From positions 1 to 38,065 of the forward strand of contig JAGRPC010000126.1 of NCBI GenBank assembly GCA_020439925.1: a stretch of 38,065 nt of DNA. The letters are read 5' to 3'. Numbering within the stretch: position 1 is the stretch's first letter; each line of letters starts with the position of its first letter. Shown here piece by piece: positions 31,144-34,127 of the stretch. A program made the position numbers and the translations under genes. The notes beneath the pieces were generated by a model. It was given only the letters and a program-made list of their open reading frames with translations, had not been told where the DNA came from and ran no database searches. Source of the DNA: Verrucomicrobiia bacterium. Lineage in GTDB: Bacteria > Verrucomicrobiota > Verrucomicrobiia > Verrucomicrobiales > DEV007.

Positions 31144-31941
31144 TCAACCTTCCCCTCCCGGAAAGAGGAACCCCGTCAGCGGACTGCTTGCCGACGCCGC
31201 GGTGGAAATCTCCGGCACCCCGCCCGACTCAAAGGCGATGCGGCCGGCTTCGACGGCCATGCGGAAAGCGCCGGCAACCGCAACCGGATCCCCCGCAATG
31301 GCGATGGCCGTGTTGACAAGTACCGCGTCGGCACCCATTTCAAGCGCTTCGGCGGCATGACTGGGCCTCCCCAGTCCCGCGTCGATCACTACCGGCACGG
31401 TGGCCTGCGCGATGATGATCTCGATCTGGCGCTTCGTCGCGATCCCCTGGTTGGATCCGATGGGGGCTCCGAGTGGCATGACGGTGGCTGTCCCCACATC
31501 CTGGAGCCGCTTCGCCAGCACCGGATCGGCATTGATGTAGGGCAACACGGTGAACCCTTCCCTGACAAGAATCTCAGCAGCCTTGAGAGTCTCGATCGGG
31601 TCTGGCAGCAAGTAGGTGGGATCCGGGTGGATCTCCAGTTTCACCCATTGCGGAAGGCCGGCGGAAGCGGCGAGCCGGGCCAATCGAACCGCTTCCTCCG
31701 CGTTCATCGCTCCCGAGGTGTTCGGAAGAAGGAGGTAACGTTCCGAGTCGATAAAGTCGAGGATATTGGCAAAAGGATCTCCCTTCCCCGTGAGGTCCGC
31801 ACGACGCAGAGCCACCGTGACAATTTCCGTTCCCGAAGCCTCAAGGGCGTCGCGCATGGCTTCGTTCGAGGAAAACTTCCCCGTTCCCAAGAGGAGACGG
31901 GAGGTGAAGGAACGGCCGGCGATGACGAGAGGAGTGGTCAC
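31144..31941 (-). CDS. thiG: Thiazole synthase
   Basis: 265 residues, TIM barrel. It makes the thiazole phosphate of thiamine from 1-deoxyxylulose-5-phosphate, dehydroglycine and ThiS-thiocarboxylate. The Schiff-base lysine is K101 (VKLEIHPD). Other conserved segments: [79 protein letters not shown]. The start is GTG at 31941, aligning with the family. No thiS, thiF, thiH, thiO or thiE occurs nearby and no TPP riboswitch was recognised upstream; instead a terminator-ended RNA precedes it (31990-32104). Confidence 0.95.
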
Positions 31942-31989
31942 GGGAGAGGAACGAGGGGGGAAACTAAGGGAAGCTCCCAAAAGCTCCAC

Positions 31990-32026
31990 AAAAAAACCTC
32001 TCCGATTTCTCGGAGAGGTCCTTTTT
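31990..32026. terminator. Strong bidirectional intrinsic terminator
   Basis: Perfect 10-bp stem ACCTCTCCGA (31996-32005) / TCGGAGAGGT (32010-32019) with loop TTTC. On the minus strand six Ts follow (31995-31990 plus one stem-edge T); on the plus strand CCTTTTTG follows. It should stop readthrough from mscL and end the candidate RNA before thiG. Confidence 0.85.
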
Positions 32027-32104
32027 GATTCGCAAGCCCGCACAACCAGGCTTACCACAACAACCAAGCAATGAAACTCTGGGCGACGTCGCCCTCAAAA
32101 CAAC
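31990..32104 (-). ncRNA. Candidate structured small RNA or attenuator leader upstream of thiG
   Basis: A promoter-like TGGACG-17-TAAGTT (32139-32111) predicts transcription from about 32104. The ~115-nt product would contain a perfect 14-nt palindrome GGGCGACGTCGCCC (32094-32081), a hairpin AAGCC-N10-GGCTT (32052-32033) and a 10-bp terminator stem (32019-31996) followed by Ts. No convincing coding frame lies in it. It ends about 50 nt before the thiG GTG, so it could be a free sRNA or a leader that attenuates thiG. It does not match the TPP, SRP, 6S or tmRNA patterns that I can recall. Confidence 0.4.
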
Positions 32105-32110
32105 GGTCGG

Positions 32111-32139
32111 AACTTACCAGTTTTCAAAAACCCCGTCCA
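32111..32139 (-). promoter_or_regulatory. Candidate promoter of the RNA upstream of thiG
   Basis: On the minus strand TGGACG (32139-32134), 17 nt, TAAGTT (32116-32111). The -10 hexamer is identical to that of the Lrp/AhbAB-like gene. The flanks (32120-32188) are unusually AT-rich for the window. Confidence 0.4.
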
Positions 32140-32188
32140 TCTTTTTTGCAAAAACGGAGAAAAGTTTTTAGATTTTTCTCAAATCTGA

Positions 32189-32629
32189 TCAGGATTTCTG
32201 GTTTTTCAGGAGATCGCGGATCTCGGTGAGCAGGACAATGTCTGCGGACGGTGCCGCCGGCTCGGCAGGGGCTTCATCCTTTTTCTTCAGGGCGGCCATG
32301 AATTTCTTGATCACGATAAAGAGGACCAGCGCGAGAATGAGAAAGCTGATGAATGAGGTGATGAAGTTGCCATAGGTGAGGAGAACGACCTCCCCCGCTT
32401 CGGCGGCTGCCTTGACGGTTTTTCCTTCGGGGACTTTCCCAAGGGGAATCACCTTGTCGCTGAAATCCACCCCTCCCGTCACGGATCCGATCAGAGGCAT
32501 GAAGATATCGTCGACAAGGCTCTTCACCAGAGTGCCGAACGCCCCACCGATGATGATACCGACGGCCATGTCGATGAGATTGCCCTTGAACGCGAATTCC
32601 TTGAAATCGTTGATGAAGTTTTTGATCAT
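32189..32629 (-). CDS. mscL: Large-conductance mechanosensitive channel
   Basis: 146 residues. The N-terminal helix and TM1 (FKEFAFKGNLIDMAVGIIIGGAFGTLVKSLVDDIFMPLIG) are split here by family motifs FKGN, AVGIIIGGAFG and DDIFMPLIG; TM2 is FITSFISFLILALVLFIVI, then FMAALKKK and a cytoplasmic helix LLTEIRDLLKNQ. Homopentamer of the inner membrane that opens under tension to release solutes on osmotic downshock. The periplasmic loop is a little longer than in E. coli (136 residues). Downstream an AT-rich AGATTT-N5-AAATCT hairpin (32170-32186) may aid termination before the stronger terminator at 31996. Confidence 0.96.
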   Translation of the reverse strand: MIKNFINDFKEFAFKGNLIDMAVGIIIGGAFGTLVKSLVDDIFMPLIGSVTGGVDFSDKVIPLGKVPEGKTVKAAAEAGEVVLLTYGNFITSFISFLILALVLFIVIKKFMAALKKKDEAPAEPAAPSADIVLLTEIRDLLKNQKS

Positions 32630-32711: not shown

Positions 32712-34127
32712 TCACACGCCCTTCGTGAACTTGTCGAAGCCCGTCCAGACAAAATAGACCGCCACCAGCACGATCGAAACGGCGCTGACCCAGAAACCGA
32801 GATCGTAGAACAGGCCAGGCTTCAGTGACTTCGGGAGGCGCCGATAACGAAAATGAACGGCGCTGACGAGGACGAGGAGGAGAATGGCCGCGGTGATGGC
32901 TCCGCCCACGAGAACCATCCATACCGGATCCTTGTAAATGAGCGCCAATACTGCCCAAAGGGCGGGAAAGAAAAAGGCGAAGAACGCAATGGCCCGACCG
33001 CGCGCGACCGGATCGTGATAGTTCAACCAACCTACCGCACTGAACGCATCGGAAAAGAGGCGGCTCCATCCGGCGAGGGCCGAGAACAGCGTGGAGAACA
33101 GCACAAAAAAGGCCCCGGTGAGGAAGGCGACCTCGGCCCATTCACCGAGAGAGTCGGTGTACATCCTCGAGAGGGTTTTGACCATTTCATACCCCTCCGG
33201 TTTCAGTCCCTGGGCATGGAGAATCGCAGCGCCCAGAAGGTAGAACGCGACGGTCATGAACGTATAGACGAGCATGGAGAGAAAGGCGTCCCAGTACATC
33301 ACCCGGATCCAGCCTTTCGCACGGCGGGTCCACTCCGAAGTGTCTTCACGCGGACCGGTGCGGGCGGCATACCCCTTTTCCAACAACCAGTAGTTGTAGG
33401 CCATCACCTCGTCTCCCCCTACCCCGGTGATCCCGAAAGCGGCAACCGCCACTCCCACCACGGCCGCGGGGATTCCGTTCCAGACGGAGAGCCCTTCGGC
33501 AATCTGGCCGCGATTCATGGCAAAGTCGGTCAACTGGACCCCGGCCAGGCAGGCCACGGTGAAGAGGGCAAAAAGCCCGATCATGACGAGGGAAAGTTTT
33601 TCGATAAACTGATACTTCCCGCGGAAAATCATCAGCGAAACCGTGGGCGCGGACACGCAAATCCAGGCCCAGACCGGAACCGAGGGCACGATGATGTTCA
33701 GGATGATTCCCACCCCCCCGATGATGCCGCCGACCTGCAGGGGCTTGATCATCATCATGAGCAGCCACAGCCAGGTCGCCCAGCTCCCTTTTCCAAAATG
33801 AGGGCCCGGCAGTTGATTGAGCGCCTCGAAGGTCGTCTCGCCGGAATGGATCGCGTGTTTCCCGAACTCCAACTGCACAAAGACCTTCACGAGGCAGCTC
33901 ACGATGATGACCCACAGGGCAACAAAGCCCGCTTCTGCTCCGAGAGCGGTCGTGGCAATCAACTCTCCCGAACCGACAATGGATGCCGAAAGAATGAAAC
34001 CGGGCCCCAGATAGCGGACCATCCCTCCGAAGGAAGAAGGAGGATCCTGGACAAGGCTCCTGTCGACGGCGTAGGGATCGGCGGTCACGTTTTGATTTTC
34101 GGTTTTGCTGATGTTAATGGCCGGCAA
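32712..34127 (-). CDS. Nramp-fold membrane transporter lacking the canonical metal-binding motifs
   Basis: 471 residues with about 11 membrane helices. The N-terminal part aligns with Nramp TM1-TM3 (YLGPGFILSASIVGSGELIATTALGA, ALWVIIVSCLVKVFVQ), but the Asp-Pro-Gly-Asn of TM1 is here G-S-G-E (52-55) and the TM6 Met-Pro-His region reads GITGVGGDEVMAYNYW. Such divergent members, common in planctomycetes and verrucomicrobia, are annotated as Nramp family, but metal specificity cannot be assumed; transport of Mg2+ or another solute is possible. The start is TTG at 34127; GTG at 34088 is an alternative. It lies 33 nt after the sialate O-acetylesterase gene and is probably co-transcribed with it. 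Confidence 0.8.
   Translation of the reverse strand: MPAINISKTENQNVTADPYAVDRSLVQDPPSSFGGMVRYLGPGFILSASIVGSGELIATTALGAEAGFVALWVIIVSCLVKVFVQLEFGKHAIHSGETTFEALNQLPGPHFGKGSWATWLWLLMMMIKPLQVGGIIGGVGIILNIIVPSVPVWAWICVSAPTVSLMIFRGKYQFIEKLSLVMIGLFALFTVACLAGVQLTDFAMNRGQIAEGLSVWNGIPAAVVGVAVAAFGITGVGGDEVMAYNYWLLEKGYAARTGPREDTSEWTRRAKGWIRVMYWDAFLSMLVYTFMTVAFYLLGAAILHAQGLKPEGYEMVKTLSRMYTDSLGEWAEVAFLTGAFFVLFSTLFSALAGWSRLFSDAFSAVGWLNYHDPVARGRAIAFFAFFFPALWAVLALIYKDPVWMVLVGGAITAAILLLVLVSAVHFRYRRLPKSLKPGLFYDLGFWVSAVSIVLVAVYFVWTGFDKFTKGV

Follow-up and report, generated by a model that had tools for sequence, protein, structure and literature searches.

Organisation of the mscL–thiG intergenic region

We analysed a 38,065-nucleotide stretch of DNA (the window) from an uncultured Verrucomicrobiia bacterium of the order Verrucomicrobiales. 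The putative small RNA (sRNA) block described here occupies the minus strand of the intergenic region between mscL and thiG, both of which are also encoded on the minus strand. The features of this region, in the direction of minus-strand transcription, are as follows.

32629..32189, minus strand: mscL, upstream neighbour, outside the RNA (Pfam PF01741, E 1e-40)
32139..32134, minus strand: putative −35 element TGGACG; T-N-GAC is retained among relatives
32116..32111, minus strand: putative −10 element TAAGTT; TAnnnT recurs at the same place in relatives
31990..32104, minus strand: putative sRNA gene body of about 115 nt, from promoter and terminator anatomy; covariance model R1 matches at 31983-32111 with 99 bits
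32094..32081, minus strand: hairpin 1, GC palindrome GGGCGACGTCGCCC; two-sided changes and individual folds
32076..32055, minus strand: G/U-rich core UUUCAUUGCUUGGUUGUUGUGG, presumed functional site; near-invariant
32055..32032, minus strand: hairpin 2, 9 bp, GTAAGCCTG/CGGGCTTGC; two-sided changes, stem letters varying between species
32019..31990, minus strand: intrinsic terminator with a 10-bp stem ACCTCTCCGA/TCGGAGAGGT and U7; terminator scan and covariation
31990..31986, minus strand: TGTGG, adjoining the U tract; probable −35 region of the promoter of thiG itself
31966..31961, minus strand: TAGTTT, probable −10 element of the thiG promoter
31941..31144, minus strand: thiG with a GTG start, downstream neighbour, outside the RNA (Pfam PF05690, E 1.7e-104)

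The hexamers TGGACG and TAAGTT are 17 nt apart in the window genome. We infer that the RNA starts at 32104, 7 nt past the −10 element, and place its 3' end at 31990, where the terminator's U tract ends. The core at 32076..32055 (minus strand) reads TTTCATTGCTTGGTTGTTGTGG, and the terminator stem (32019..31996) is followed by seven T at 31996..31990. A first-pass annotation of this DNA had listed TGGACG-17-TAAGTT, a palindrome, a second hairpin and a 10-bp terminator, with about 50 nt left before the thiG GTG codon. The minus strand contains all of them, and the distance from the end of the terminator (31990) to the GTG (31941) is 48 nt. The palindrome, which it called perfect, is indeed so in the window genome, whereas relatives carry a hairpin at this place, usually with a GUUGUUG loop. 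The 126-nt stretch 32105..31980 has a predicted folding energy of −55.7 kcal/mol, compared with −34.9 ± 3.4 kcal/mol for shuffled sequences (z −6.1).

The terminator region (31990-32025) is nearly symmetrical, with a run of A 5' of the stem and a run of T 3' of it, and the covariance model also matched it on the plus strand. It could act bidirectionally, although no converging gene is present there. Just upstream of mscL lies a membrane-protein-like open reading frame (ORF) of 471 amino acids (32712-34127, minus strand), which had no Pfam match at E 1e-5 and by eye recalls Nramp-type transporters.

Conservation and distribution of the element

The core, a G/U-rich sequence of about 20 nt (UUUCAUUGCUUGGUUGUUGU), is nearly invariant among relatives. 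Identity to eight relatives reaches 98% over 32076-32062, compared with 42-72% across the upstream positions 32136-32077, and is 0.98 at the end of the terminator (32001-31987). The core and the terminator end are thus the most conserved blocks. A lack of conservation beyond the terminator in close relatives had been named in advance as grounds for abandoning the idea of an sRNA; conservation extends well past it. Within the core, UUUCAUUGC is also nearly fixed, in addition to the GUUGUU repeat. The core is largely unpaired, with moderate accessibility (mean 0.61 unpaired).

The flanking stems follow a different pattern. We examined covariation in 34 sequences aligned by the covariance model. 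Two-sided changes occur in 20 of 26 pairs, compared with 12.3 ± 1.6 in shuffled alignments, and the covariation score is 0.374, against 0.184 in shuffled and at most 0.125 in slid controls. These values are to be read with the alignment leaning to structure and the sequences being related by descent. None of 500 shuffles reached any of the observed values, and all three stems covary: two-sided changes affect 5 of 5 pairs in hairpin 1 (86% of cells paired), 5 of 5 modelled pairs in hairpin 2 and 10 of 16 pairs in the terminator (96% of cells paired). The compensatory changes that the first-pass annotation had proposed to look for are therefore found in each stem. Although their stems differ widely in sequence, the hairpins found in other genera each fold on their own. 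Variants of the hairpin 1 stem include AACUC/GAGUU in other genera and UUUGGGC/GCCCAAA within the genus. We take the core to be the probable working part of the RNA, because it stays fixed while the stems change their letters yet keep pairing.

The putative promoter is similarly retained. A T-N-GAC hexamer followed by a hexamer starting with TA was found in 32 of 35 sequences, some of them from other genera, at a spacing of 16-17 nt (19 nt in two cases) and 32-55 nt upstream of the UUGG of the core; the second hexamer reads TAnnnT in 29 of the 35. Since the scan itself required GAC and TA, the evidence lies in the constant place and spacing of the pair. We propose that it is a sigma-70-like promoter belonging to the sRNA. 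At the level of sequence, the element thereby has both its own promoter and an intrinsic terminator, as a trans-encoded sRNA gene would.

A blastn search with the whole intergenic region hit 23 of 34 genomes of the genus, counting that of the window itself. Covariance model R1, built from 22 same-genus sequences, detected the element in 27 of these 34 genomes and in six genomes from three other genera of the family, none of which had been used for model building. A search with the core pattern added two genomes (G061 and G069), so that clear copies are present in five genera of the family. A 19-mer of the core was found in 30 of 75 family genomes, and its reversed-pattern control in none. Nearly all genomes possess one real copy; additional covariance-model matches were on the reverse strand, covered a terminator alone (bare terminator L139), or lay on possibly foreign contigs (G014:C29 and G017:C273). 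In the order and class samples searched, nothing convincing was found outside the family. Four weak covariance-model matches there were bare terminators, and 15 class-wide core matches with two mismatches were rejected on inspection, having neither promoter nor terminator.

Two of the unusual loci deserve mention. A diverged copy with the core TTTCATTGTTAAGTTGTTGTTGTG (L146, G017:C273:2345-2466) was found on a contig possibly derived from another species, and may represent a further lineage of the RNA family. The G014 bin holds two different thiG-mscL-sRNA loci, L147 (on G014:C29) and L006 (JAGNMT010000322), one of which closely resembles the locus of another species; contamination of this bin is therefore likely.

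The element is kept independently of its flanking genes. In six genomes (G057, G058, G059, G060, G062 and G063) other, unrelated genes flank the full element, and neither thiG nor mscL was found beside it in the 1 to 3 kb fetched on either side. By locus, thiG was not found in the fetched stretch of L138 and L140-L145. Within the genus, G019 has mscL at the locus and thiG was not found, and at some other loci thiG is present and mscL was not found.

A search of Rfam 15 returned no match at the gathering score, and under relaxed thresholds the best match below the cut-off (56 bits) scored 20.6 bits. Searches of the open-access literature on sRNAs of Verrucomicrobia and Akkermansia found neither this RNA described nor any characterised regulatory sRNA from Verrucomicrobiota. 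The proposal of a possible new small RNA is thus upheld by the following: 1) a promoter and a terminator of its own; 2) covarying stems; 3) a nearly invariant core; and 4) the lack of a matching Rfam family. From these comparisons we consider it probable (roughly 0.7) that the element is a free-standing gene for an sRNA of about 115 nt with the core as its working part, and we infer that a discrete transcript is made from it.

Possible modes of action of the core

The complement of the core, ACAACAACCAAGCAAUGAAA, is CA-rich and contains AUG-AAA, which makes the blocking of mRNA starts a natural reading. In the mechanism that we propose, the minus strand would be transcribed from the sigma-70-like promoter and transcription would stop at the element's own terminator, giving an RNA in which hairpin 1, the exposed G/U-rich core, hairpin 2 and the terminator follow one another. 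The core would act in trans, base pairing over a short length with CA-rich sequence surrounding the start codons of mRNAs and so blocking translation, in the manner of the GcvB R1 seed. We regard base pairing as an even bet.

GcvB, an Hfq-dependent sRNA of E. coli and Salmonella about 200 nt long, has a G/U-rich R1 region and targets C/A-rich start regions. Like GcvB, the element would be a single trans-acting sRNA gene, with an internal seed placed between structured parts and a terminator; unlike GcvB, it is about 115 nt long, matches no Rfam family, and occurs in a genome in which Hfq (PF17209) was not found (G000, 93% complete). GcvB acts on many mRNAs, mainly via the R1 seed (PMC11878033).

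Searches for targets limit the form that such pairing could take. Complementary sites of 14 nt with up to two mismatches numbered 13 in the genome, compared with 16 for the reversed-pattern control, and exact 12-nt complements of the core were almost absent besides the sRNA locus itself. As long complementary targets are at background level, in the genome or across the genus, any base pairing would have to be short or imperfect. One weak candidate start site was noted, at L199, which encodes an MBOAT-like membrane protein as judged by eye.

Because Hfq went undetected in the genome, we propose that an RRM-type RNA-binding protein may assist. Five RRM-domain genes are present in G000 (C440, C334, C522, C490 and C89; loci L230-L235). 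In Bacteroides thetaiotaomicron, FopS and GibS are sRNAs bound by RbpB, an RRM protein, and they are reported to repress at start codons (PMC11697453). By analogy, an RRM partner is plausible for the sRNA described here. The element resembles FopS and GibS in having a conserved single-stranded putative seed and a terminator, in a genome with RRM genes. In FopS, which has 14 paralogues, the seed is at the 5' end and no hairpin precedes it, whereas the element has a 5' hairpin, an internal core and a single copy. A FopS model has been deposited in Rfam (PMC11697453), and no Rfam family matches the element, assuming that this model is in the Rfam copy used.

The same RNA gene might instead serve as a decoy, its GUUGUU repeats titrating an RNA-binding protein such as one of the RRM type. 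Outside the core, GUUGUU occurs 41 times in the 35 sequences, compared with 4.9 expected from dinucleotide shuffles, in the hairpin 1 loop, in the 5' tail and sometimes in the hairpin 2 loop. Common descent accounts for part of the loop motif's occurrence, so the 41 cannot be counted as independent. In most of the window's genus the motif occurs several times in loops; outside the genus such copies are mostly absent, and most elements have GUUGUU solely in the core. The five RRM genes, the failure to detect Hfq and the lack of long complementary mRNA sites would all suit a decoy, although a simple repeat-binding protein would not need the nearly fixed UUUCAUUGC. A short motif that recurs in loops and single-stranded parts is reminiscent of CsrB and RsmY, which titrate CsrA; in contrast to these, the motif is GUUGUU rather than GGA and the repeats are far fewer. 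Titration seems to us somewhat unlikely, the remaining weight beside it and base pairing going to other modes of action. A broader conjecture, which we offer tentatively, is of an Hfq-independent sRNA family in Verrucomicrobiota, with GUUGUU in the core and loops, acting either as a decoy for an RRM-type protein or by guiding it to CA-rich mRNA starts.

Relation to the neighbouring genes

The element had also been put forward as an attenuator or control element of thiG: a leader with an upstream promoter and a terminator switched by a ligand or a protein. Its position is suggestive. In most same-genus genomes it lies on the same strand directly upstream of thiG, with the terminator between promoter and gene. 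On the other side, no thiG was found near the element in other genera or in G019, and the distance from the core to the thiG start varies from 115 to 288 nt within the genus. Nor is an alternative antiterminator pairing conserved. Pairing of the 5' end with the core, considered as an antiterminator or a mask of the seed, was rejected as a general feature: it is strong in a few species, its mean z is −0.54, and it beats shuffles (at about p 0.05) in a minority of the 35 sequences.

Past the strong terminator, thiG keeps a conserved promoter-like element, TGTGG-N19-TAVnnT, which recurs in 19 of the 33 loci of the genus with its spacing unchanged at 19 nt and is retained where the sRNA core has decayed (L016 and L017). 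This is probably thiG's own promoter. In the window it spans 31961-31990 and overlaps the end of the terminator U tract, so that the thiG promoter follows the sRNA gene immediately, in tandem.

The TPP riboswitch (RF00059) is the expected control element of thiamine genes. As the first-pass annotation had noted, none is recognisable here: RF00059 had no match within the window. The only copy detected in the genome (L107, G000:C370:3356-3458, 76 bits) is on another contig, where it precedes an ORF resembling the N-terminus of ThiC by eye, which places TPP control at thiC. Furthermore, the core pairs with the start regions of thiG or mscL no better than shuffles do. Because the element exists without thiG elsewhere, lies at varied distances from it and is followed by thiG's own promoter-like element, and given TPP control at thiC and the lack of pairing by the core, attenuation of thiG is unlikely, indeed very much so in our estimate, and the sRNA would simply adjoin this gene.

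We give equally little credence to the reading that the mscL transcript ends in the conserved block, which would then be either a UTR-derived sRNA or a mere terminator, with no promoter of its own. The mscL gene, which shares the strand of the element, stops 85 nt upstream of the predicted sRNA start, and in the interval separating the two the terminator scan revealed no other terminator on the minus strand. Set against this are promoter elements conserved at a fixed spacing, the occurrence of the element without mscL in other genera and at some same-genus loci, and a core conserved far above the rest, for which termination has no need.

A small protein gene is the least credible reading, since the open frames of the window genome, a plus-strand ORF (32071..32229) starting with ATGAAA within the core complement and a TTG-started frame running from 32067 into thiG, give way among relatives to indels and kept RNA stems past the ATGAAA and, in nearly all of them, to stops that close the frame upstream of thiG. 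The earlier statement that the block has no coding frame thus overlooked the TTG-started frame, which we nevertheless regard as non-coding because of those stops.

With these comparisons a false lead is removed, in that thiG would not be the regulated gene. The element would instead represent a new family within a known class of RNA, the bacterial trans-encoded sRNA, unusual for its nearly invariant G/U core with UUG repeats, for the absence of detectable Hfq and for its occurrence in bacteria from which the literature searched yielded no described sRNA. A conserved, covarying sRNA offers a concrete entry point to the use of sRNAs in bacteria without detectable Hfq, and the link to RRM proteins makes the question of its partner directly testable.
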